From: Geodermatophilus siccatus
Lineage (GTDB): Bacteria > Actinomycetota > Actinomycetes > Mycobacteriales > Geodermatophilaceae
Direction of reading: 5' to 3'
Length of the DNA stretch: 64,000 nucleotides
NCBI RefSeq assembly: GCF_900103785.1
Contig: NZ_FNHE01000002.1
Span: forward strand, 1 to 64,000
Below, one piece after another: positions 47,530 to 63,820 of the stretch. The notes beneath the pieces were generated by a model, which was not told where the DNA came from, did not search any database, and saw nothing but the letters and a program-made list of their open reading frames with translations. Position numbers and translations under genes: made by a program. The number at the start of each line of letters is the position of its first letter. Position 1 is the stretch's first letter.

Positions 47530-48930
47530 CTACCGGGCCCGGTGGGCGAGCAGGTCGCCGGGCTCCACGGCGAGCGCGGCGGGCGCCGACCGGCGGGCCG
47601 CCTGCGCGTGCCGGGCGTCCGCCGTCGGCACGACGAGGGTGAGCAGGGCGCCGAGCACGGCCAGGGCGGTCAGCACGTAGAAGATGGAGTTGAGCGCGAT
47701 GCCGGAGGCGACGAGCAGGCCGCCGATGAGCGGACCGCCGATGCCCCCGAGGCGCCCGAACCCGGCGCACCAGGCGACACCCGCGCTGCGCACGTTGGTG
47801 CGGTAGTAGGTCGCGACGAAGCCGTAGATGAGGATCTGCGTCCCGCTCGTGCCCAGCCCCACGACCGCCACGAAGGCCAGCAGCACGCCCAGCGGGAGGC
47901 TCACGGTCAGCAGCGCGATCGCCGCCGCACCCAGCGTGAAGGACGCCGCCACCACCGGCTTGGGCCCGAACCGGTCGGCGAACCGGGAGGCGGCCAGCGC
48001 GCCCAGGACCGCGCCGCCGTTCAGGACCAGCAGGAAGGACAGGGACCCGTTGGTGGAGAAGCCGGCGCGGCCCATCAGCTCCGGCAGCCAGGTGTTGAGC
48101 GCGTAGACCAGCAGGAGACCGGTCGCGCTGAGCAGGCCCAGCAGGAGGGTCGGCAGCAGGTAGGTGCGTCCGGCCAGCCCGGCGAAGCCCGCACGGCCCT
48201 CGACGACCGGCTCGGGGACCCGGGGGCCCTCGGTGCCCGGCACGGCCAGCGACACCCCGGTCCGCGCGGCGACGGCCCGCGCCTCGTCCAGGCGTCCCCG
48301 CGATGCCAGCCAGGCCGGCGACTCGGGCATCTTGAGGAAGGCGAGGGGGAGCAGCGTCAGCAGCGGCAGGGCACCGATCCAGAACATGCCCCGCCAGCCG
48401 ATGACGTCCAGCAGCAGGATGGCCAGCAGCGCGGCGAGCAGGCTGCCCAGCGGCACCCCCGAGTAGGAGATCGCGTTGGCCAGGTTCTTCTTGCCCGCGG
48501 GCGCGAACTCGGCGACCAGCGCCCCGGTGGTGGCGACCAGGGCGCCGACCCCGATGCCGGTGACGAAGCGGAGCAGGCCGAAGGCCGCGGTGCTCGTGGC
48601 CAGGGCGGTGAGGGCCATGCCGACGGAGAACCACGCGTAGGCGGTGAGCATGACCCTCCGCCGGCCGATGACGTCGGCGACGCTGCCGGCCAGGAGGGCG
48701 CCGACGAGCACGCCGATGAGCGCGTAGCTGCCCAGGGCGCCGGCCAGGGCCGGCGTCACCTCGCCGATCTGACCCGGGTCGCGCAGGAAGAGCGGGACGA
48801 CGGTCCCGTAGACGACCAGGTCGTAGCCGTCGAAGACCAGGCCGACCGTGGCCAGCGAGACGATCCAGGTGACCGACCTGCGACGGAGCGCGTCCTGCCG
48901 GACGGCTCCGTCCTGCGTGGATGGTGCCAC
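47530..48930 (-). CDS. benK: Aromatic acid:H+ symporter (AAHS family), benzoate importer
   Basis: The protein has 466 residues and twelve membrane segments. The family motif VFDGYDLVVYGTVVPLFLRD in helix 1 holds the Asp needed for aromatic acid uptake; SVADVIGRRRVML joins helices 2 and 3, and LVYALNTWLPELMGRAGFST begins the second half. It most resembles BenK/PcaK-type carriers. GTG 48930 has GAGGAG upstream. It is the last gene of the minus-strand cat operon, separated from catC by a repeat-filled 266-bp spacer. A clearly related paralogue lies at 62417-63820. Confidence 0.87.
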   Translation of the reverse strand: MAPSTQDGAVRQDALRRRSVTWIVSLATVGLVFDGYDLVVYGTVVPLFLRDPGQIGEVTPALAGALGSYALIGVLVGALLAGSVADVIGRRRVMLTAYAWFSVGMALTALATSTAAFGLLRFVTGIGVGALVATTGALVAEFAPAGKKNLANAISYSGVPLGSLLAALLAILLLDVIGWRGMFWIGALPLLTLLPLAFLKMPESPAWLASRGRLDEARAVAARTGVSLAVPGTEGPRVPEPVVEGRAGFAGLAGRTYLLPTLLLGLLSATGLLLVYALNTWLPELMGRAGFSTNGSLSFLLVLNGGAVLGALAASRFADRFGPKPVVAASFTLGAAAIALLTVSLPLGVLLAFVAVVGLGTSGTQILIYGFVATYYRTNVRSAGVAWCAGFGRLGGIGGPLIGGLLVASGIALNSIFYVLTALAVLGALLTLVVPTADARHAQAARRSAPAALAVEPGDLLAHRAR

Positions 48931-49073
48931 TGCTGTTCTCCTCGGGACGGGCCCTGGCTCGAAGACGGCACGGGAGCCGTGGCAGGGCAGGGGACACCCG
49001 GCGACCGACGTCGCCACGGGTGGGGGGAGGGGAGACGCGCCGGGCTGGAGGGAGGTCGCCGGGCGGCCGGGTG

Positions 49074-49196: not shown

Positions 49197-49224
<28 letters not shown>
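49124..49224. repeat. 26-bp tandem array derived from the end of catC, about four copies
   Basis: Copies lie at 49124-49148 (25 bp, most diverged), 49149-49174, 49175-49200 and 49201-49224. The rightmost copy is the last coding part of catC (DIAQDPAQ). Read in the catC direction, the next copy starts with the stop codon, so the array is untranslated. The last full copies differ by one or two bases, so duplication is recent or maintained. Confidence 0.85.
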
Positions 49225-51551
<2,327 letters not shown>

Positions 51552-51555
<4 letters not shown>

Positions 51556-52496
51556 CGGGTGCCTCCCAGTGGGGCGGTGTCTGGTGCGGTCGAGCTGGGG
51601 AAGTCCGCGTCGGGCACGAGGAAGCCGTTGGCCTCCAGCGCGTCGAGCAGCCGGGCGAGGGCGGGGGAGCGGTCCTCGCGCCGCCAGGCCAGGGCCAGGT
51701 CGATGTGCACGTCGTCGGCGACGGGCACGAAGCTCACCCCGTTGACGCGCAGCGCCAGCACGGACTCGGGCAGCAGGGCCACGCCCAGGCCGGCGGCGAC
51801 CAGCGTGAGCATGATCGAGGTCTCCGCGGCCTGGTGGGTGCGCCGGGGCAGGAAGCCCGCGGCGAGGCAGGCCTGGGTCACGACGGTGTTCACGACGGAG
51901 CCCTCGACGCCGTAGACGACGAAGTCCTCGTCCCGCAGTTCGGTCAGCCCGACCGGCTCGTCACCGGCGAGACGGTGGCTGCCGGGCGCAGCGAGGACCA
52001 GCCGTTCCCGGGTGATCAGGCGGGACGACAACCCCGTCCGGCGCAGCGGTGGACGCAGCACCGCGAGGTCGATCCGGTCCTCCTCGAGGGCCAGCTCCTG
52101 CGCCGGGGTGAGCAGGTCGGTCTGGAACCGCAGCACCAGGCCGGGAACCTCCCGGGCGGCGATCCGGGCCAGCTGGGGCAGCTGGCGGAGCGCCGCCAGC
52201 CCGGTCGCCCCGACACGGAGGAGGCCGGTGCTGCCGGCGCCGATCAGCTGGACCCGGGTCCGCGCGGCCTCGATCGAGTCCAGGATGCGCTCGGCGTCCT
52301 GCAGGAACGCCTCACCGGCGGGCGTGAGCTCGACCCGCCGCGTCGTCCGGGTGAACAGCGCGGTCCCGAGCTGGGCCTCCAGCTGGCGGATGGCCTGGGA
52401 CAGCGGGGACTGGGCCATGTGCAGGCGTTCGGCCGCCCGCCCGAAGTGACGGGTCCGGGCGACGGTGACGAAGTAGTGCAGCTGGCGGATCTCCAC
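51552..52496 (-). CDS. catR: LysR-family regulator of the cat/ben genes (CatR/BenM-like)
   Basis: The protein has 314 residues. The N-terminal helix-turn-helix is MEIRQLHYFVTVARTRHFGR, then AAERLHMAQSPLSQAIRQLE. The effector domain (residues ~90-300) follows the CatM/BenM layout (LRFQTDLLTPAQELALEEDR; LVAAGLGVALLPESVLALRV). Such regulators bind muconate and sometimes benzoate. It starts at a GTG after GGAGGAGGG and overlaps catB, so it is the first gene of the operon it presumably controls, not a separate divergent unit as in Pseudomonas and Acinetobacter. The shared promoter region with benA holds a clear palindrome. Confidence 0.88.
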
Positions 52497-52641: not shown

Positions 52642-52740
52642 GGATGCCTGGTCAGGACTAGGCACTTTGCTGACGCGAACGTGACCGGTGCCACCCACAG
52701 TTGGGGACAGCGCAATCGACCACCGGACCGGAGGCCCGCC

Positions 52741-54117
52741 ATGACAGTCGACGCCACCCAGCTCAGCGACGTCCTCGCCGATGCCGTCATCGAAGACCCC
52801 GAGGCCGGGATCTACCGGGCCAACCGTCGGATCTTCACCGACGAGGAGATCTTCGAGCTGGAGATGACCCACATCTTCGAGGGGAACTGGGTCTACCTCG
52901 CGCACGAGAGCCAGGTCCCCAACGCGGGGGACTACTTCACGACCTACATCGGCCGTCAGCCGGTCGTCATCACGCGCGACAAGAGCGGCGAGCTGCACTG
53001 CCTCATCAACGCCTGTGCGCACCGCGGCGCGATGCTGTGCCGCCGCAAGACGGACAACCGGATGACCTTGACCTGCCCGTTCCACGGCTGGACGTTCCGC
53101 AACGACGGCACGCTGCTCAAGGTCAAGGACCCCGACGGCGCCGGCTACCCCGCCAGCTTCAACAAGGACGGCTCGCACAACCTGGTCAAGGTCGCGCGGT
53201 TCGACAGCTACCGCGGGTTCCTCTTCGGCAGCGTCAACCCGGACGTCAGCACGCTCGCCGAACACCTCGGTGACACCACCAAGGTCATCGACATGCTCGT
53301 CGACCAGTCGCCGGAGGGGCTGGAGGTGCTGCGCGGCTCCTCGACCTACACCTACGACGGCAACTGGAAGGTCCAGGCGGAGAACGGCGCCGACGGCTAC
53401 CACGTCAGCGCGACCCACTGGAACTACGCGGCCACGACCTCACGGCGCAGCACGGGGGAGTCGAAGAACACGACCAAGGCACTGGACGCCGGCGGCTGGG
53501 GCAAGTCCGGCGGCGGCTACTGGTCCTACCCCAACGGGCACCTGTGCCTGTGGACCTGGGCGGCCAACCCGCAGGACCGCCCGCTGTGGGACCGCATGGA
53601 CGAGCTCAAGGCCCAGTTCGGCGAGGCCAAGGGCGAGTTCATGGTCAAGGGCTCCCGCAACCTGTGCCTGTACCCGAACGTCTACCTGATGGACCAGTTC
53701 AGCACCCAGATCCGGCACTTCCGGCCGATCTCGCCCGAGCAGACCGAGGTCACCATCTACTGCATCGCCCCCAAGGGCGAGAGCGCCGAGGCCCGTGAGC
53801 ACCGGATCCGCCAGTACGAGGACTTCTTCAACGCCTCGGGCATGGCCACCCCGGACGACCTGGAGGAGTTCCGCTCCTGCCAGCTCACCTTCCGGGCGAC
53901 CGCCGCGCCCTGGAACGACATGAGCCGCGGTGCCGAGCACTGGCTGAACGGGCCGGACCCGGTCGCCAAGGCCCTCGGCATGGACGGCGTCATCTCCGCG
54001 GGGCAGCGCAACGAGGACGAGGGGCTGTACCCGATCCAGCACGGCTACTGGCTGCAGACCATGCGCGCCGCCGTCGAGAAGCAGGCCGGCGTGTCCACCG
54101 CGACCTCGGAGGGCTGA
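52741..54117 (+). CDS. benA: Benzoate 1,2-dioxygenase, large (alpha) subunit
   Basis: The protein has 458 residues. The Rieske cluster is held by C-x-H in NACAHRGAMLC and C-x2-H in TCPFHGWTFRNDG. The mononuclear iron site is NGADGYHVSATHWNY, with two His and the bridging Asp. Together with BenB it inserts O2 into benzoate to give the 1,2-cis-diol carboxylate. GGAGG lies nine bases before ATG 52741. benB begins five bases after its stop. The sequence belongs to the benzoate/toluate branch, but the ring substituent range cannot be read from sequence. Confidence 0.93.
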   Translation: MTVDATQLSDVLADAVIEDPEAGIYRANRRIFTDEEIFELEMTHIFEGNWVYLAHESQVPNAGDYFTTYIGRQPVVITRDKSGELHCLINACAHRGAMLCRRKTDNRMTLTCPFHGWTFRNDGTLLKVKDPDGAGYPASFNKDGSHNLVKVARFDSYRGFLFGSVNPDVSTLAEHLGDTTKVIDMLVDQSPEGLEVLRGSSTYTYDGNWKVQAENGADGYHVSATHWNYAATTSRRSTGESKNTTKALDAGGWGKSGGGYWSYPNGHLCLWTWAANPQDRPLWDRMDELKAQFGEAKGEFMVKGSRNLCLYPNVYLMDQFSTQIRHFRPISPEQTEVTIYCIAPKGESAEAREHRIRQYEDFFNASGMATPDDLEEFRSCQLTFRATAAPWNDMSRGAEHWLNGPDPVAKALGMDGVISAGQRNEDEGLYPIQHGYWLQTMRAAVEKQAGVSTATSEG

Positions 54118-54122
54118 TCCCC

Positions 54123-54671
54123 GTGACGACCACCCAGAACCCCGTGCAGACCCCGACCGAGGCGGCGCCCGCGGGCGGGAAGCTCATCACCCAGAACATG
54201 ATCGAGCAGTTCCTCTACCGCGAGGCCCGCTACCTCGACGACCGCGAGTTCGAGAAGTGGCTGGAGTGCTACGCCGACGACGTCGTCTTCTGGATGCCGT
54301 CGTGGGCCGACGACGACCGGCTCACCGAGGACCCGCACCGGGAGATGTCCCTCATCTACTACTCGAACAAGGGTGGCCTCGAGGACCGCGTCTTCCGGAT
54401 CCGCACCGAGCGTTCCAGCGCGACGTCGCTGCCCGAGCCGCGCACCAGCCACAACATCACCAACGTGGAGGTCATCGAGCGCCGCGGCGACCTGGTCGAC
54501 ATCCGGTTCAACTGGCACACCATGTACTTCCGGTACAAGACCGTCGACCCCTACTACGGGACGTCGTTCTACACGATCGACTTCTCCGGGCCCGCACCGC
54601 TCATCCGGCGCAAGACCGTGGTGCTGAAGAACGACTACATCCACCACGTCGTCGACGTCTACCACCTCTGA
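54123..54671 (+). CDS. benB: Benzoate 1,2-dioxygenase, small (beta) subunit
   Basis: The protein has 182 residues, cone-shaped fold of the dioxygenase beta subunits. LITQNMIEQFLYREARYLDD, then WLECYADDVVFWMPSWADDD and IYYSNKGGLEDRVFRIRTER, are typical. It has a structural role in the alpha3-beta3 complex. GTG 54123 follows benA closely. The following gene starts after 66 bp at an ATG behind GAGA. Confidence 0.92.
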   Translation: MTTTQNPVQTPTEAAPAGGKLITQNMIEQFLYREARYLDDREFEKWLECYADDVVFWMPSWADDDRLTEDPHREMSLIYYSNKGGLEDRVFRIRTERSSATSLPEPRTSHNITNVEVIERRGDLVDIRFNWHTMYFRYKTVDPYYGTSFYTIDFSGPAPLIRRKTVVLKNDYIHHVVDVYHL

Positions 54672-54737: not shown

Positions 54738-57509
54738 ATGGACCACCGCGTGGCACTCGCGTTCGAGGACGGGGTCACCCGCTTCATCACCTGCCGGGAC
54801 GACCAGACCGTCGCCGACGCGTCCTACCGGGCACGGATCAACATCCCGCTGGACTGCCGTGACGGCGCCTGCGGCACCTGCAAGGCCCTCTGCGAGTCGG
54901 GGGAGTTCGACGGGGGCACGTACCTCGAGGACGCGCTGTCGGACGACGAGGCCCAGAACGGGTACGTGCTGCCCTGCAGCATGAAGCCGCGCTCGGACCT
55001 GGTGCTGCAGATCGCGACCACGTCGGCGGTGGCCAAGACCAGCGCCGCCACCCACCGCGGTCGCATCACCGCGCTCGACCGGCTGTCCCCGACGACGGTC
55101 GCGCTGACCGTCGAGATCGACGACCGGGACGCCCTGGCGTTCCTCCCCGGGCAGTACGTCAACATCGCCGTCCCGGGGACCGAGGAGTCCCGGTCGTACT
55201 CCTTCAGCAGCGCTCCGCAGGACGAGGCGCTGACGTTCCTGGTCAAGCTGACGCCCGGCGGCGTCATGTCGACCTACCTGGAGGAGCGCGCCGCGGTCGG
55301 GGACGAGATCACCTTCACCGGTCCGCACGGCAGCTTCTTCCTGCGCGAGTCCGACGCCCCGCTGCTGCTCCTGGCCGGCGGCACCGGACTGGCGCCGATC
55401 CTGTCCATCCTGCGGACGCTGGAGGGCGGCCGCAGCGACCGGCAGATGCACCTGGTCTACGGGGTCACGACCGACGACGACCTGGTCGAGATGGAGGCCA
55501 TCGAGCAGCTCGCGGGCAGCATCGACGGGCTCACCTGGGACTACTGCGTCGCCGACCCCGCCACCAAGGCCCCCAACCAGGGCTACGTCACCGGCCTGTA
55601 CGGGCCCGAGCACCTGCACGACGGCGGCGCCGCGGTGTACCTCTGCGGCCCGCCGGCCATGGTGGAGGCGGTCCGCAAGCACGTCGCCGGGCTGGGAGTC
55701 GCCCCCTCGGGCTTCTACTACGAGAAGTTCGCGCTGGCCGCGGTCCCGACGGAGGCCGCCGAGGAGGTCGTCCAGCCGGAGCCCGAGGCCGTCGTGCCGG
55801 AGTCCGAGGCGGTCGCCCCCGAGCCGCCGCCGGTGCCGGTCGTCGTCCCGGACACCGTGGCCGAGCTGCTGGCCCTGGGCGGCCGGGAGGGCCGGACCTC
55901 GGCCGGCCAGGCCCTGTTCCCGCCGGTGGAGCTGACCCCCCTCGGCGCCGACGGAGCCGGGCCGCGCACCGAGTCGCCGTCGGACATGTGGCGGCTGGCG
56001 GGGCAGCAGCTGGGGGAACCGTTCCCCACCGGGGACGTCCTGCCCGTGGACGACGCCGAGGACCTGGTGCCCGCCGTCGGTGCCCGCGCCGTCGCCGGTC
56101 AGGAGATGCTGCCCCAGGGGGAGCTGGAGCAGCTCACCGCGCCGACGCCCCCGCCGCCGGCCGGTCAGCCGGACGCCGGGACCGAGGACGCAGCGGTCGA
56201 GCCGACGCTGACCCCCGAGGGCTACTCCATCACGGCCGACGGGTACGAGATCGGTGAGGAGCACCCGTCGGTGCACGAGTCCGACGCCATCTTCGACGCC
56301 CGCCGGGCGCTGGAACTCGGCGCCGCCGAGCTCATCATCGGTCGCCTGACGCACCAGGAGCTCATCGGCTACCGGGTGCTGGCCGAGGCCACCGTCCCCT
56401 ACGTCGAGGGCGACCGGTTCGTCGACGCGGCGGCGTACACCGAGACCAACGCCGCCTTCCACGACTACCTGTTCACCCTCACCGGCAATGAGCACCTGCT
56501 GCGCGCCTACCAGGCACTCGGCGTCAAGGGGCACATGGAGGAGTCCCTCCGCTCGGCCACCTGGTGCCACCCCCGGTGCGCCCAGGACCACCTCGACATC
56601 GTCGAGGCGTTCCGGGACGGCGACCGCGAGCGGGCACGGGTCCTCATCACCGAGCACGCGGAACGGTCCAAGGAGACCACCCGCCGGGCCATGCACGACC
56701 TCGCCGCGGGACGCCGTCCCCGGTTCGTGACGCCGGGCCGGTTCGCCGGTCGGGTCGTCCTGGTCACCGGGGCCGGGCAGGGGATCGGCGAGCGCACGGC
56801 CCGGCGGATCAGCGCGGAGGGCGGGATCATGGTGCTGGCCGACCGCGCCGAGCTGGTGCGCGACCTGGCCGAGGAGCTGGGTCAGCCCGGGGCCGAGGCG
56901 ATCCCCGTCGTCGCGGACCTGGAGACCTGGGAGGGCGCGAAGTCCGTCGTGGACGCCGCGCTGGCGCGGTTCGGCCGCATCGACGTCGCCATCCACACCG
57001 TCGGCGGCACGATCTGGGCCAAGCCGTTCGAGCACTACCCGCCCGAGCAGATCCAGGCCGAGATCAACCGGTCCCTCTGGCCGACGCTGTGGTGCTGCCG
57101 CGCCGTCGTCCCGCACATGGTGGAGCGGGGGCAGGGCACCATCGTCAACGTGTCGTCGGTGGCCACCCGTGGGGTCAACCGCCTGCCGTACTCCGCCGCC
57201 AAGGGCGGCGTCAACGCCATCACCACCGCGCTGGCCCTCGAGATGGCACCGCACGGCGTGCGGGTCGTCGCCACGGCCCCGGGCGGGACCGACGCCCCAC
57301 CGCGGCGCACCCCGCGCGGCCCGGCGCCGGAGACGGAGCTCGAGCAGTCCTGGTACCGGTCGATCGTCGACCAGACGGTCGAGTCCTCGCTGATGAAGCG
57401 GTACGGGACCCTGGACGAGCAGGCCGCGGCCATCACCTTCCTGGCCTCGGAGGAGGCCTCCTACATCACCGGCACCATCCTGCCCGTGGCCGGTGGCGAC
57501 CTGGGCTGA
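54738..57509 (+). CDS. benCD: BenC-FCD-BenD fusion: dioxygenase reductase, GntR-type ligand domain and cis-diol dehydrogenase in one protein
   Basis: This is one uninterrupted 923-residue frame. Residues 1-100: ferredoxin with C40, C45, C48 and C80. Residues ~105-345: FAD/NAD reductase (ESRSYSFSSAPQ; LLAGGTGLAPILSIL; YLCGPPAMVEAVRKH). This is a complete BenC, which delivers NADH electrons to BenAB. Residues ~345-505: Pro/Glu/Ala-rich linker. Residues ~508-655: an FCD all-helical domain, normally the effector domain of FadR-type regulators, with His in NAAFHDYLF, QDHLDIVEAF and TEHAERS. No DNA-binding domain accompanies it. Residues ~668-923: SDR dehydrogenase with TGAGQGIG and Y818-x3-K822 (YSAAK), a BenD that oxidises the cis-diol to catechol. 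Some actinobacterial BenC proteins are longer than 500 residues, as I recall, so the FCD part may be wider; the added BenD I cannot match. Confidence 0.9.
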   Translation: MDHRVALAFEDGVTRFITCRDDQTVADASYRARINIPLDCRDGACGTCKALCESGEFDGGTYLEDALSDDEAQNGYVLPCSMKPRSDLVLQIATTSAVAKTSAATHRGRITALDRLSPTTVALTVEIDDRDALAFLPGQYVNIAVPGTEESRSYSFSSAPQDEALTFLVKLTPGGVMSTYLEERAAVGDEITFTGPHGSFFLRESDAPLLLLAGGTGLAPILSILRTLEGGRSDRQMHLVYGVTTDDDLVEMEAIEQLAGSIDGLTWDYCVADPATKAPNQGYVTGLYGPEHLHDGGAAVYLCGPPAMVEAVRKHVAGLGVAPSGFYYEKFALAAVPTEAAEEVVQPEPEAVVPESEAVAPEPPPVPVVVPDTVAELLALGGREGRTSAGQALFPPVELTPLGADGAGPRTESPSDMWRLAGQQLGEPFPTGDVLPVDDAEDLVPAVGARAVAGQEMLPQGELEQLTAPTPPPPAGQPDAGTEDAAVEPTLTPEGYSITADGYEIGEEHPSVHESDAIFDARRALELGAAELIIGRLTHQELIGYRVLAEATVPYVEGDRFVDAAAYTETNAAFHDYLFTLTGNEHLLRAYQALGVKGHMEESLRSATWCHPRCAQDHLDIVEAFRDGDRERARVLITEHAERSKETTRRAMHDLAAGRRPRFVTPGRFAGRVVLVTGAGQGIGERTARRISAEGGIMVLADRAELVRDLAEELGQPGAEAIPVVADLETWEGAKSVVDAALARFGRIDVAIHTVGGTIWAKPFEHYPPEQIQAEINRSLWPTLWCCRAVVPHMVERGQGTIVNVSSVATRGVNRLPYSAAKGGVNAITTALALEMAPHGVRVVATAPGGTDAPPRRTPRGPAPETELEQSWYRSIVDQTVESSLMKRYGTLDEQAAAITFLASEEASYITGTILPVAGGDLG

Positions 57510-57570: not shown

Positions 57571-60348
57571 GTGAGCGGGACCGACGAGGACGCCCACGTC
57601 GTGGGGCTGGCCACCGAGACCGCGCAACTCGAGGCGCTGCTGCTCCGCGCCTGCGCCGGCGGGCCGGTGGTGGTCGTCGTCGAGGGCCCGGCCGGGATCG
57701 GCAAGACCACCCTGCTGCGCCGGTTCCTGCGTCGGCACCCCGAGGTGCCGACGACGGCGGCCACCGGGCTGCCGTGGGAGAGCAGCCGGGCCGGGGCGCT
57801 GGCCCGGCGGCTCCTCGACGACGACCCCGGGGACTCCCCGGCGTGGCCGGCCGGCGACGACCCCGTCGACCTCGGCACCGCGCTCGCCCGGCGGTGGGAG
57901 GCCCGGGCCAGGGAGGAGCCGCTGCTGGTCGTCGTCGACGACGCACACCACGCGGACCCGGTCTCGTTGCAGGCGATCGGCTCCGCGGTCGCGCGCACGC
58001 ACCGCGCTCCGGTGCTGCTGCTGCTCGCCCGGACCACCGGCTGGCCGGACGCCGGCGCCGTGGACGCCGGCGCCGTCCTCGACCGGCTCGCGGCCACCTC
58101 CGTCCCCGTGCTGCGCCTCGGGCCGGCCGAGACCCGGCTGCTCGCCGCGCGGGTCGCGGCGGCCGACCTCCCGATGCCCGTCGCGCGGCGCCTCTGCGAG
58201 CACGCCGCCGGCATCCCCGGCCACCTCCTGGAGCTGTTCCGCGACACCCCGCCGGTCCGCTGGTCGGACTGGCAGACCCGGCTCCCCGCGCCGGCCAGCG
58301 TGCAGCGCCGCGTGCACCGGGCCCTCGACCGCTGCTCCCCGGAGGCGCGGGCGCTGGTCGAGGCGGCGGCCGTGCTCGGCCGGAACCCCGTGCTCGCCGA
58401 CGCCGCGGCCCTGGCCGGGCTCACCGACCCGATCGCCGCCCTCGACGAGGCCTGTGCCGCCGGCCTCCTGGCGACCGCCGCCGGCCACGGCCTGGACGCG
58501 CTCACCTTCCCGGAGCGGTTCATCCGTGGGGCCGTCCACGCGACCCTCTCCCCGCGGGCGCGGCACGAGCTCCACCTGCGCGCGGCCGCCGTGGTCACGG
58601 ACGACACCGAGCGGCTCCGCCACCGGGTCGAGGCGGCACCGCTCCCCGACGCGCGCCTCGCCGAGGAGCTGGTGGAGCTGGCGCGGCGCAAGGCCGACGA
58701 GGGGGCGTGGGCCGTCGTCGCAGGCGCGCTCATCGACGCCAGCCGCATCAGCCCCACCCGGGCCGACCGCGAGGCCCGCCTCCTCCAGGCCGTCGACGCG
58801 CTGGCCGGAGCGGGCCTGCTCGGGCAGGCCGTGGACGCCCTCCCCGAGGTCGAGGCGCTGCCCACCGGCCCCCGCCGCGACTCCGTGCTGGCCTACGTCG
58901 CCGTCCAGCGCGGCCGCCGCGCCGAGGCCGCCGCCCACCTCGACACCGCCTGGCGCCTCCGGGGGACCGACCGGGGTGCCGCCGCCGTCGTCTGCCAGCG
59001 GTACGTGCTCCACGCCCTGGCCGACTGGGACGGCGACGCGCTGGTCCGGTGGGCCGGCCGGGCCGTCGAGTACGCCGACCCCGGCTCGCCTGCTGCCGTC
59101 GAGTCCCGCGCCATCGCGGGGCTGGGCCACGCCGCCCGGGGCTGCGTCGACGAGGCGTTCACCACCTACCGGCACGCGGTCGCCGAGAGCCCGGCCGGAC
59201 CCCAGCACCAGCGCGCGCGCATGGGCCTGGGCTGGTTGTACCTGGCGCAGGACCAGCCCGAGGCCGCCCGGCGCGAGCTGGAGTTCGCCGTCCCGACCGT
59301 GCGGCAGACTGGCTCGAACCGGATCTCCCTGTGGGCCCTGGTGTGGCTCGCCCGCACCCGCTTCGCCCTGGGCGACTGGCCCGGGGCACTGGACGCGGTC
59401 GGTCAGGCCGAGGCCCTGCTCAGCGCCACCGGGCTGGACCTGCTGCGTCCCCTCGTCCACTGGACCGGCGCCCAGGTCCACGCCCTGCGCGCAGAGCACG
59501 AGGACGCCGAGCGGCACCTGCAGCTCGGCGCGGCCACCGAGCACGACTACACCGTCATGACCGTCCCCGCACTCCTCGCGCGGGCGCACGTGGCCGAGGC
59601 GGCGTCGGACTACGACGCGGTCGTCCGCCACCTCGCCCCCCTCGCCGCCCGGACACCGCGCGCCGGTCTCGACGAACCGGGGTTCTGGCCCTGGCACGAC
59701 GTCTACGCCAACGCCCTCGTCGTCACCGACCGGCTCCCCGAGGCCGAGGCGTTCCTCGCGCCGCTCGAGACGACGGCGCAGCGCCGGGGGCACCGGTCCA
59801 CGAGCGCCCGGCTCGGCTACGTCCGCGGCCGGCTGTTGGCCGCCCGCGGCGACCTGCCCGGCGCCGAGGAGGCGTTCGAGCAGGCGCGGGCCCGACTGGC
59901 CGTGCTGCCGCTGCCGTACGAGCGGGCGCGGGTGGACTTCGCCCACGGCATCACCCTGCGCCGCGCCGGCCGACGGCGGGACGCCGCCACTCTGCTCACC
60001 ACGGCACGGCAGTCCTTCGCCGCGCTCGGCGCCCGGGTCTACGTGGAGCGCTGCGACCGGGAGCTCAAGACGGCCCGGCCGGCGCCCCGCGGAGCCGAGA
60101 CCGGCACCGAGCACCTCACCGAGCAGGAGCGGACCGTCGCCACCCTCGTCGCGACCGGCCTGACCAACAAGGAGGTGGCCGCGTCGATGCTGCTGTCGGT
60201 CAAGACGGTCCAGTTCCACCTCACCCGGGTGTACGCCAAGCTCGGTGTCCGGTCCCGGTCCGAACTGGCCGCGCGCTTCTCCCACGGACCCGCTCTCGGG
60301 GGGAACGGGGGCCGTGGTCCGCAGGCCGGTGTCCCGGCGCCCCGCTAG
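57571..60348 (+). CDS. LAL-type LuxR regulator (large ATP-binding)
   Basis: The protein has about 925 residues. Near the N-terminus is a Walker A loop (VEGPAGIGKTTLLRRFLRR) and a Walker B (PLLVVVDDAHHADPVSLQAI). A long middle section has TPR-like helices (RARMGLGWLYLAQDQPEAAR). The C-terminal LuxR helix-turn-helix is LTEQERTVATLVATGLTNKE, then VAASMLLSVKTVQFHLTRVY. LAL proteins are ATP-dependent activators, often of catabolic genes. It starts 61 bp after the BenC-BenD fusion on the same strand, so it may be cotranscribed and may control the benzoate genes. GTG 57571 is preferred; the ribosome binding site is poor. Confidence 0.85.
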   Translation: MSGTDEDAHVVGLATETAQLEALLLRACAGGPVVVVVEGPAGIGKTTLLRRFLRRHPEVPTTAATGLPWESSRAGALARRLLDDDPGDSPAWPAGDDPVDLGTALARRWEARAREEPLLVVVDDAHHADPVSLQAIGSAVARTHRAPVLLLLARTTGWPDAGAVDAGAVLDRLAATSVPVLRLGPAETRLLAARVAAADLPMPVARRLCEHAAGIPGHLLELFRDTPPVRWSDWQTRLPAPASVQRRVHRALDRCSPEARALVEAAAVLGRNPVLADAAALAGLTDPIAALDEACAAGLLATAAGHGLDALTFPERFIRGAVHATLSPRARHELHLRAAAVVTDDTERLRHRVEAAPLPDARLAEELVELARRKADEGAWAVVAGALIDASRISPTRADREARLLQAVDALAGAGLLGQAVDALPEVEALPTGPRRDSVLAYVAVQRGRRAEAAAHLDTAWRLRGTDRGAAAVVCQRYVLHALADWDGDALVRWAGRAVEYADPGSPAAVESRAIAGLGHAARGCVDEAFTTYRHAVAESPAGPQHQRARMGLGWLYLAQDQPEAARRELEFAVPTVRQTGSNRISLWALVWLARTRFALGDWPGALDAVGQAEALLSATGLDLLRPLVHWTGAQVHALRAEHEDAERHLQLGAATEHDYTVMTVPALLARAHVAEAASDYDAVVRHLAPLAARTPRAGLDEPGFWPWHDVYANALVVTDRLPEAEAFLAPLETTAQRRGHRSTSARLGYVRGRLLAARGDLPGAEEAFEQARARLAVLPLPYERARVDFAHGITLRRAGRRRDAATLLTTARQSFAALGARVYVERCDRELKTARPAPRGAETGTEHLTEQERTVATLVATGLTNKEVAASMLLSVKTVQFHLTRVYAKLGVRSRSELAARFSHGPALGGNGGRGPQAGVPAPR

Positions 60349-60603: not shown

Positions 60604-62416
<1,813 letters not shown>

Positions 62417-63820
62417 ATGTCGATCGCCACCGGTGGTCCACCGGACGCCGCCACGGAGCCGACCCCGCAGCAGGAGGCCCGGCGTCGCCGCACCGTCGCC
62501 TGGGTCGTCGCGCTGGCCACCCTCGGGCTCGTCTTCGACGGGTACGACCTGGTCGTCTACGGCACCGTCGTCCCGTTGTTCCTCGCCGATCCCGGTGAGA
62601 TCGGGCCGGTCACACCGGCCGTCGCCGGCGCACTGGGCAGCTACGCGCTGTTCGGCGTCCTGGTCGGCGCCCTGCTCGCCGGCAGCGTCGCCGACATCGT
62701 GGGGCGGCGCACGGTCATGCTCACCGCGTACGCGTGGTTCTCCGTCGGCATGGGCGTGACCGCCCTGATGGACAGCACCGGCGGGTTCGGGGTGATGCGG
62801 TTCGTCACCGGCCTCGGCGTCGGAGCCCTGGTGGCCACCACCGGCGCCCTGGTGGCCGAGTACGCACCGCCGGGGAAGAAGAACCTCGCCAACGCCATCA
62901 CCTACTCCGGTGTGCCGATCGGGAGCCTGCTGGCCGCGCTGCTGGCGATCCTGCTCCTGGACCGGATCGGCTGGCGCGGCATGTTCTGGATCGGCGCCCT
63001 CCCGCTGGTGACCCTGCTGCCGCTGGCCTGGCTCAAGATGCCCGAGTCGCCCAGCTGGCTCGCCTCCCGAGGTCGTTCCGAGGAGGCCCGGAGGGTCTCC
63101 GAGCGGACCGGTGTGCCGATCAGCGCGCCCGCCGCGCCGGGCGCCACCGCCGCGGCGCCGGTCCGTCGGGAGCGGGCGGGCTTCGCGGGCCTGTTCAGTG
63201 GCCAGTACTGGTTCCCCACCGTGGTGCTGGGGCTGATGAGCGCCACCGGGCTCGTCCTCGTGTACGTGCTGAACACCTGGCTGCCCGAGCTCATGGGCCG
63301 CGCCGGGTACTCGACGCAGGGCTCGCTGTCCTTCCTCCTCGTGCTCAACGGGGGCGCGGTCGTCGCGGCCCTGCTGGCCTCCCGGCTCGCCGACCGGTTC
63401 GGGCCCAAGATGGTGGTCGCCGCGTCCTTCCTGCTCGGTGCGGTCGCCCTGCTGCTGCTCACCGTCGACGCCCCTCTGGCGCTGCTCCTGCTCTTCGTCG
63501 CCGTGGTGGGGGCGGGCACCAGCGGCACGCAGATCCTGATCTACGGCTTCGTGGCGAACTACTACCGCCCGAACGTGCGCGGCGCGGGGGTGGCGTGGTG
63601 CGCCGGGTTCGGACGGCTGGGCGGGGTCGCCGGCCCCCTGGTGGGTGGTCTCCTCGTCGCCGCGGGGCTCGGACTGGAGGCGATCTTCTACGTGCTGACC
63701 GGCATGGCGGCCTTCGGTGCCCTCCTGACCCTGCTGGTGCCCGTGGCCCGACGGGGAGGCGCGGCCCGGGCCGTGCCGGTGGAGCCGACCGCCGCAGCAC
63801 AGCCCCCCGCCGGGCGATGA
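62417..63820 (+). CDS. benK: Aromatic acid:H+ symporter (AAHS family), second copy
   Basis: The protein has 467 residues and twelve membrane segments. VFDGYDLVVYGTVVPLFLAD in helix 1, SVADIVGRRTVMLTAYAW, GWRGMFWIGALPLVTLLPLA and LVLNGGAVVAALLASRLADR are nearly the same as in the first copy, so the two are recent paralogues or one was acquired. ATG 62417 has AGGAGG seven bases upstream. It faces away from catA2 and is followed by a universal stress gene on the same strand. The frame is intact. Confidence 0.88.
   Translation: MSIATGGPPDAATEPTPQQEARRRRTVAWVVALATLGLVFDGYDLVVYGTVVPLFLADPGEIGPVTPAVAGALGSYALFGVLVGALLAGSVADIVGRRTVMLTAYAWFSVGMGVTALMDSTGGFGVMRFVTGLGVGALVATTGALVAEYAPPGKKNLANAITYSGVPIGSLLAALLAILLLDRIGWRGMFWIGALPLVTLLPLAWLKMPESPSWLASRGRSEEARRVSERTGVPISAPAAPGATAAAPVRRERAGFAGLFSGQYWFPTVVLGLMSATGLVLVYVLNTWLPELMGRAGYSTQGSLSFLLVLNGGAVVAALLASRLADRFGPKMVVAASFLLGAVALLLLTVDAPLALLLLFVAVVGAGTSGTQILIYGFVANYYRPNVRGAGVAWCAGFGRLGGVAGPLVGGLLVAAGLGLEAIFYVLTGMAAFGALLTLLVPVARRGGAARAVPVEPTAAAQPPAGR

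Follow-up and report, generated by a model that had tools for sequence, protein, structure and literature searches.

A BenC-FCD-BenD fusion protein in the benzoate-catabolism cluster of Geodermatophilus siccatus: probable stepwise origin, candidate metal site and linker repeat

Why should a ligand domain known from transcription regulators, with its candidate metal site kept, be found amid a redox enzyme? This question is raised by a locus of Geodermatophilus siccatus, located in a stretch of 64,000 nucleotides (contig NZ_FNHE01000002.1, positions 1 to 64,000; hereafter, the window). One gene of the window joins three parts in a single chain: (i) the reductase BenC; (ii) an FCD domain; and (iii) the dehydrogenase BenD. 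The FCD domain is the least expected part of this fusion, and the preliminary description of the DNA, made from its letters, made little of it. The BenC-FCD-BenD architecture as such is known and widespread among relatives. What is added here is the three-stage series to which it belongs, the single fused clade, the candidate metal site of the FCD domain, a linker repeat of about 32 residues, and a related fusion with a cytochrome P450.

The fusion gene and its neighbourhood

The fusion gene and its parts are laid out as follows:

54738..57509, plus strand: BenC-FCD-BenD fusion gene, 923 amino acids, ATG to TGA, with no internal stops
54738..55733, plus strand: BenC part, residues 1-332, with plant-type [2Fe-2S] ferredoxin, FAD and NAD domains
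55734..56249, plus strand: variable, probably disordered linker, residues 333-504, with low pLDDT and low conservation
56250..56702, plus strand: FCD domain, residues about 505-655, with candidate metal ligands N571, H575, H618 and H640
56739..57506, plus strand: BenD part, residues 668-923, a short-chain dehydrogenase with Y818 and K822

The ribosome-binding-like sequence GGAGAG lies immediately 5' of the ATG. Five Pfam domains, each scoring above its own gathering cut-off, follow one another along the chain: Fer2 (residues 10-84), FAD_binding_6 (110-200), NAD_binding_1 (211-314), FCD (518-642; 57.7 bits against a cut-off of 24.3) and adh_short (672-854). The NCBIfam equivalog profiles of BenC (470.7 bits, cut-off 430, residues 3-332) and BenD (421.2 bits, cut-off 380, residues 668-923) are likewise matched, and the nearest solved structure to the BenC part is that of benzoate 1,2-dioxygenase reductase (1krh, E 1.4e-96). 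This profile map, with BenC, FCD and BenD all above cut-off, bears out the single three-part frame of 923 codons that had been proposed in the preliminary description. The residues numbered there, namely the cluster cysteines C40, C45, C48 and C80 of the BenC part and Y818 and K822 of the BenD part, are correct, and none of them varies across 50 aligned fused proteins (the window's own and 49 chosen from the 80 best loci of the species scan described below). The same holds for R152 S153 Y154 S155 and G215-P220 in the BenC part, which form the FAD motif RxYS and the NAD-domain motif GTGLAP, and for T677, G678, G682, G684 and S806/S807 in the BenD part. T677-G684 is the SDR nucleotide motif TGxxxGxG, and S806/S807, Y818 and K822 supply the catalytic Ser, Tyr and Lys. 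Judging from these profiles and residues, the identities of the two enzymes are almost certainly BenC and BenD; the enzymatic steps ascribed to the fusion are inferred from equivalog-level family membership and from the operon context, which comprises the following genes:

49197..49490, minus strand: catC, muconolactone isomerase (TIGR03221, 135.8 bits, cut-off 130.6)
49493..50344, minus strand: catA, catechol 1,2-dioxygenase (TIGR02438, 464.4 bits, cut-off 404.4)
50452..51555, minus strand: catB-like muconate cycloisomerase (TIGR02534, 211 bits, below the cut-off of 334.95)
51552..52496, minus strand: LysR-type regulator beside the divergent cat genes (LysR-family NCBIfam matches, all below cut-off)
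52738..54117, plus strand: benA, dioxygenase large subunit (TIGR03229, 800.7 bits, cut-off 780.95)
54123..54671, plus strand: benB, dioxygenase small subunit (TIGR03232, 266.8 bits, cut-off 225.55)
57571..60348, plus strand: large LuxR-type (AAA + GerE) regulator, start codon uncertain (Pfam AAA_16 and GerE, frame from 57493)

On the plus strand, the order is thus benA, benB, the fusion gene and, directly downstream of it, the LuxR-type regulator, while the minus strand of the cluster carries catC, catA, the catB-like gene and the LysR regulator. Searches for promoters and terminators with simple consensus sequences between 52400 and 57700 found none, such consensus sequences being uninformative at this GC content.

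In 90 of 97 loci, one open frame spans the whole chain, linker included. These loci comprise the best 80 from the species scan, nine from the same genus, the window's own, and seven weaker homologues from its own genome, and it is these last seven that have no single open frame. Since six of the 90 single-frame proteins repeat identical sequences, 84 distinct ones are left. Six proteins from same-genus genomes match those of six Geodermatophilus records in the species scan without any difference. GC3 is 0.95-0.98 in each of the four segments of the fusion, in keeping with the even codon use and frame noticed earlier. Among 12 Geodermatophilaceae copies, the median dN/dS stays below 1 in every segment (range 0.14-0.49), the values being 0.275 for BenC, 0.493 for the linker, 0.172 for the FCD domain and 0.138 for BenD; the linker thus has the highest dN/dS of the four, together with the lowest conservation. 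The preliminary description had left room for an artefact of assembly or reading frame, in the form of a collapsed stop or frameshift at the linker. Nothing was found in favour of such an artefact, and the shared open frame and the dN/dS of the linker both speak against it; its probability is negligible and, for the architecture in general, the same open frame across loci rules it out. Due to the open frame in relatives and to dN/dS values below 1, the fusion is to be regarded as a real, selected protein without a collapsed stop.

Distribution and origin of the fusion

The species scan took one genome per species, with loci confirmed by tblastn, and all of the best 80 loci kept from at least 562 relatives carry the fusion in a single frame. 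Within the genus, 10 of 26 genomes have the fused chain, and within the family 13 of 112 do, the window's own genome being included in both counts. An even sample of the class gave a match at E 1e-60 in 10 of 296 genomes, a figure that may miss copies because only three candidates were scored per genome. Three of these 10 lack the joined arrangement, and the other seven, among them the window's own genome, have both enzyme parts in one long frame; two of the seven were settled by the domain search described below. The BenC part is matched at E 1e-60 in 101 of 301 genomes of another family in this order. Of those 101 matches, 52 lie in frames open for 858 codons or more, a length that by itself is no proof of fusion, and the rest in frames of 347-801.

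Furthermore, excerpts of a paper from 2019 describe, for Gordonia alkanivorans YC-RL2, a benC and a benD that are fused with an FCD domain (PMC6362181). The window's fusion follows that published pattern: three parts, one open frame and a ben/cat cluster. Many actinobacteria carry the identical fusion already described, which is the finding that the preliminary description had named as its refutation, and while the domains and the two enzyme identities given in the preliminary description have stood, the novelty that it implied has not. Because the fusion was already described, it matters mainly as part of a natural series that runs from two genes, through a reductase-FCD protein, to one chain.

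The three stages of this series exist side by side in actinobacteria: (i) BenC and BenD; (ii) BenC-FCD and BenD; and (iii) all parts fused. When 20 further loci, picked mostly for their shorter frames, were sorted by domain search, 14 had BenC-FCD followed by a separate BenD, four had BenC and BenD without FCD, and two were fused. Over all loci with both enzymes, there are 100 fused, 16 BenC-FCD plus BenD and eight BenC plus BenD, duplicates included; two duplicates from one genome were removed from later counts. In all 14 split loci, a start codon in the frame of BenD overlaps the stop codon of BenC-FCD (ATGA or GTGA in 13, TGATG in one). This overlap presses BenC-FCD and BenD together in different frames, so that a small frame change would join both.

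Trees were of the quick kind, with SH-aLRT support only. In that of BenC plus BenD (71 rows, with four proteobacterial loci as root and the fused rows thinned from 100 to 49), all 49 fused rows form one clade with a support of 100. Nested within it lies L149, a locus with BenC and BenD but without FCD, which is one row where the fusion has been lost. Actinobacterial rows without FCD occur at four places of this tree, a pattern that suggests the domain was lost four times. A tree of BenC only (53 rows, 24 fused) agrees. In the tree of FCD only, long branches meet, as the tool warns, and no rooting was drawn from it. The simplest reading of these trees would be one gain of FCD, subsequent losses, and a single fusion with BenD. 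A stepwise origin is thus very probable: neighbouring BenC and BenD genes would have given way to BenC-FCD followed by BenD and, through one fusion event, to the present chain. The window's own genome offers no nearby source of the FCD domain, its only other match to the profile being weak and partial (47.2 bits, positions 55-148 of 150). In any case, the domain is dispensable: it is missing from four actinobacterial loci that do have BenC and BenD, including the one nested in the fused clade.

The FCD domain and the linker

Modelled alone, the FCD domain reaches a mean pLDDT of 92.4, and the best PDB fold matches of this model are FCD regulators, namely DhdR (E 1.6e-4) followed by Atu1419/VanR and others. 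A sequence-profile search for solved relatives gave no match at E 0.01, and a single-sequence search of solved structures gave two weak ones (the pyruvate dehydrogenase complex repressor and DhdR entries, E 0.17 and 0.53). Atu1419/VanR, TM0439, DhdR and PdhR, which are DNA-binding transcription regulators, have the same FCD fold as the domain found here.

Such matches might suggest that the FCD domain lets the enzyme also regulate transcription of the ben genes, and the excerpts of PMC6362181 mention the GntR link of FCD. Nevertheless, no Pfam match to the GntR DNA-binding domain (an N-terminal winged helix) was found in the chain at E 0.1, and the ben/cat cluster has LuxR-type and LysR-type regulators of its own. 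Regulation by the fusion is extremely improbable and, as the main role, is rejected because the chain has no DNA-binding domain.

The FCD domain belongs by its residues to the metal subgroup (three His plus Asn/Asp), with N571, H575, H618 and H640 as candidate ligands. All 92 distinct fused domains keep the four residues; in the 14 split BenC-FCD loci, the metal residues are as in the fusion (the three His in 14 of 14), bar one change at N571 (kept in 13 of 14). According to excerpts of PMC7797058, the zinc ligands of Atu1419 are Asn137, His141, His192 and His214. In both proteins, Asn and the first His form an N-x3-H pattern, and the last two His lie 22 residues apart. As far as excerpts on them go, Atu1419, TM0439 and PS5454 have a three-His plus Asn/Asp metal site like that of the FCD domain here. 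In FCDs of the PdhR/DhdR type, Asp occupies the position of N571; here it is Asn, although Asn binds zinc in Atu1419. To judge from these residues, the FCD domain probably binds a metal.

The domain could still be only a dimerising or folding spacer, whose metal is structural and which senses nothing. Atu1419 without its three His melts almost 20 degrees lower, as reported in the same excerpts (PMC7797058), which means that the metal can be structural, and the four apparent losses of FCD also suit a spacer. However, the conservation of the domain, as estimated from alignments, is on par with that of the catalytic ones: the mean top-residue frequency is 0.84 for FCD and 0.79 for both BenC and BenD, and dN/dS places FCD between the two, less constrained than BenD. 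The fused clade has, besides, kept FCD residues of its own (H586 in 92 of 92, P612 in 92 of 92, C614 in 91 of 92 and C610 in 83 of 92; 0 of 14 in split forms). Both observations speak against a spacer but are compatible with a structural role too. A mere spacer is a serious possibility, somewhat short of an even chance. That the FCD domain would be an assembly or control hub, rather than a passive spacer, is a reading for which we see the scales as level.

Three copies of a motif lie in the linker:

55893..55910, plus strand: copy 1, RTSAGQ, residues 386-391
55989..56006, plus strand: copy 2, WRLAGQ, residues 418-423, 32 residues after copy 1
56085..56102, plus strand: copy 3, RAVAGQ, residues 450-455, 32 residues after copy 2

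In the full-length model, pLDDT is below 50 across most of residues 332-510. The overall confidence of this model is low (pTM 0.47), its ferredoxin part is poor, and it is uninformative for domain packing; moreover, since parts of the ferredoxin domain also have a pLDDT below 50, the model alone is weak evidence for disorder of the linker. Linkers have a median length of 45 in split BenC-FCD proteins versus 148.5 in fused ones. Fused linkers contain a mean of 2.16 AGQ triplets, versus 0.08 in shuffled linkers, and 86 of 92 contain at least one, commonly in the context A-R-x-[IVL]-A-G-Q-x-[VLM]-[FLW]-P. Twelve of the 13 split linkers counted have no AGQ and one has a single AGQ; the fourteenth, of the duplicate locus L156, has none.

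The copies are regularly spaced. A looser pattern gives 105 intervals from copy to copy, of which 84 measure 28-37 residues and 42 exactly 32, whereas random placement of as many copies would give 12.3 and 1.3, respectively; 18 of the 105 measure 59-65 residues. A stricter pattern occurs 186 times in the 135,142 residues of BenC-bearing frames and three times in the 2,285,531 residues of the remaining open frames that a six-frame reading of these loci gives, the rarity outside BenC frames being the informative half of this comparison because the pattern itself was derived from these linkers. Four split proteins with long linkers have a different triple repeat, ARPVG[YF], with a spacing of 28-32 (one copy reads TRPVGY). 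Our guess is that the linker motif docks the chain on a partner.

Proposed function and known systems

As a whole, the best explanation is likely to be a trifunctional benzoate-catabolism enzyme with an FCD hub, arisen stepwise. The BenC part would pass electrons from NADH through FAD and the [2Fe-2S] cluster to the BenAB dioxygenase, which would convert benzoate to the cis-diol carboxylate, and BenD would then oxidise this compound to catechol and return NADH. The long flexible linker would leave the reductase free to move and hold BenD near the diol-making dioxygenase. As for the FCD domain, it would be a kept metal-binding helical module without the GntR DNA-binding part, which most likely serves assembly and control by bringing chains together as dimers or oligomers, with a possible response to a pathway carboxylate. 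If it did sense a pathway acid, the dioxygenase system would be under allosteric control by a domain known from gene regulation.

A different purpose for the fusion, suggested in the preliminary description, would be channelling, in which the unstable diol made by BenAB goes to the tethered BenD and the NADH from BenD is reused by BenC. It is established that BenC and BenD act at consecutive steps of the pathway and use NAD(H) in opposite directions, which fits channelling, as does the fact that the fusion clade has been kept over many genera. Nevertheless, there is no direct hand-over of substrate between BenC and BenD, as the diol-making BenAB is a separate protein, and split and fused forms exist within the same family. 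NAD(H) is, moreover, a shared and freely diffusing pool, which makes its channelling the weaker half of the idea. In all, channelling is an unlikely purpose of the fusion, and the kept metal site of the FCD domain is a stronger open question.

The FCD domain is also carried on plasmids. A search with it against plasmids gave seven records: one from Tsukamurella, which is a fused protein, five from Paraburkholderia, and one from Tritonibacter, whose frame looks like an ordinary GntR regulator. Four of the five Paraburkholderia megaplasmid proteins are, by Pfam, fusions of BenC, FCD and a cytochrome P450, and the fifth matches the 929-residue one along its whole length with 91.9% identity. In the protein of strain FT54, the P450 signatures FGxGxHxCxG, AGxDTT and ExxR are readable. 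All four Paraburkholderia P450 fusions that were aligned keep the four FCD metal positions, and the BenC-only tree places them outside the actinobacterial rows. No benA or benB is annotated within the 24 kb around the FT54 gene. A fusion of reductase, FCD and P450 was not named in the titles and abstract openings searched.

It is conceivable, though doubtful, that BenC-FCD would be a portable, metal-containing reductase chassis, whose FCD, taken over from transcription regulators, senses a pathway carboxylate or arranges the assembly, with BenD plugged on in actinobacteria and a P450 in Paraburkholderia. In the same scenario, the linker motifs of the fused clade, often present as two or three copies spaced by about 32 residues, would dock the chain on sites that recur in the dioxygenase, BenAB being a threefold assembly. 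If such docking were true, the conversion of benzoate into catechol would be assembled on the dioxygenase.

The names in use do not always tell these proteins apart. The annotation label "BenC" is given to both a fused protein and a BenC-FCD-P450 protein, so that benD may seem to be missing, or a P450 go unnoticed, in surveys of the pathway. As far as excerpts of the respective papers go, benC of Rhodococcus ruber is named reductase component/diol dehydrogenase next to a separate benD (PMC6498646), an FCD-domain protein of Rhodococcus TG-1 is named benC (PMC11858498), and benC and benD appear among down-regulated genes in a further study (PMC8637627).

Besides the FCD regulators, known systems compare with the fusion as follows. 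Proteobacterial BenC and BenD (L161-L164 and L170-L172) are likewise neighbours, and lie behind the dioxygenase genes in annotated records, but are two genes, with no FCD detected in BenC. The split type, represented by Rhodococcus TG-1 and by BopZ of Rhodococcus sp. 19070 (reportedly a longer BenC, in work of Haddad et al. from 2001), has BenC and FCD joined as here, whereas BenD is a gene of its own. The BenC-FCD-P450 proteins of Paraburkholderia have the BenC reductase followed by FCD, with the same four metal residues as here, but carry a P450 where BenD sits here, and their linker is short. Finally, G. alkanivorans YC-RL2 has, as in the window, a LysR regulator with the catechol genes and a LuxR regulator with the benzoate genes; its FCD domain is called "C-terminal" in the excerpts of PMC6362181, while the one described here lies between BenC and BenD.

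Linker repeats and clade-specific FCD residues

The linkers of the fused proteins (92 distinct proteins with BenC, FCD and BenD in one chain) contain a short motif, R-x-[IVL]-AGQ, repeated every ~32 residues. This motif is nearly absent from the split BenC-FCD proteins. Four of the latter (L141, L147, L148 and L159) have long linkers with a distinct triple repeat, ARPVG[YF], in steps of ~30 residues.

Within the FCD, a set of His, Cys and Pro residues (586, 610, 611, 612 and 614 of the fusion) is kept across the fused clade, H611 in 72 of the 92 fused proteins, and is missing from all 14 split FCDs. These residues possibly form a second metal or thiol site.

Window 55893-56102: R-x-[IVL]-AGQ repeat region of the fusion linker
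Window 56493-56579: His/Cys/Pro set of the fusion

Nested within the fused clade, L149 / L173 (genome G650) encodes BenC and BenD without FCD, and no FCD was found within the surrounding 20 kb. Its BenC tail retains one AGQ motif.

Other aromatic-catabolism genes

The window contains two catechol 1,2-dioxygenase genes, each above the NCBIfam cut-off; two MFS-transporter-like genes accompany them. A second BenC-like reductase frame (L002) lies on contig C24 of genome G000, under the BenC cut-off (218.6 vs 430 bits).

Window 60933-61805 (-): catechol 1,2-dioxygenase
Window 49493-50344 (-): catechol 1,2-dioxygenase
Window 47530-49017 (-): MFS-transporter-like, aromatic-acid type, match below family cut-off
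Window ~62411-63820 (+): MFS-transporter-like, from the frame listing alone
C24:431956-432984: L002, 36% identical

BenC-FCD-cytochrome P450 proteins

On Paraburkholderia megaplasmids, BenC, FCD and cytochrome P450 are joined as a single chain (five records). FT54, the sole record annotated at this gene, is labelled just BenC.

L165:2484-5273 (+): BenC-FCD-cytochrome P450
L166:2403-5270: same architecture
L167:2361-5264: same architecture
L168:2397-5270: same architecture
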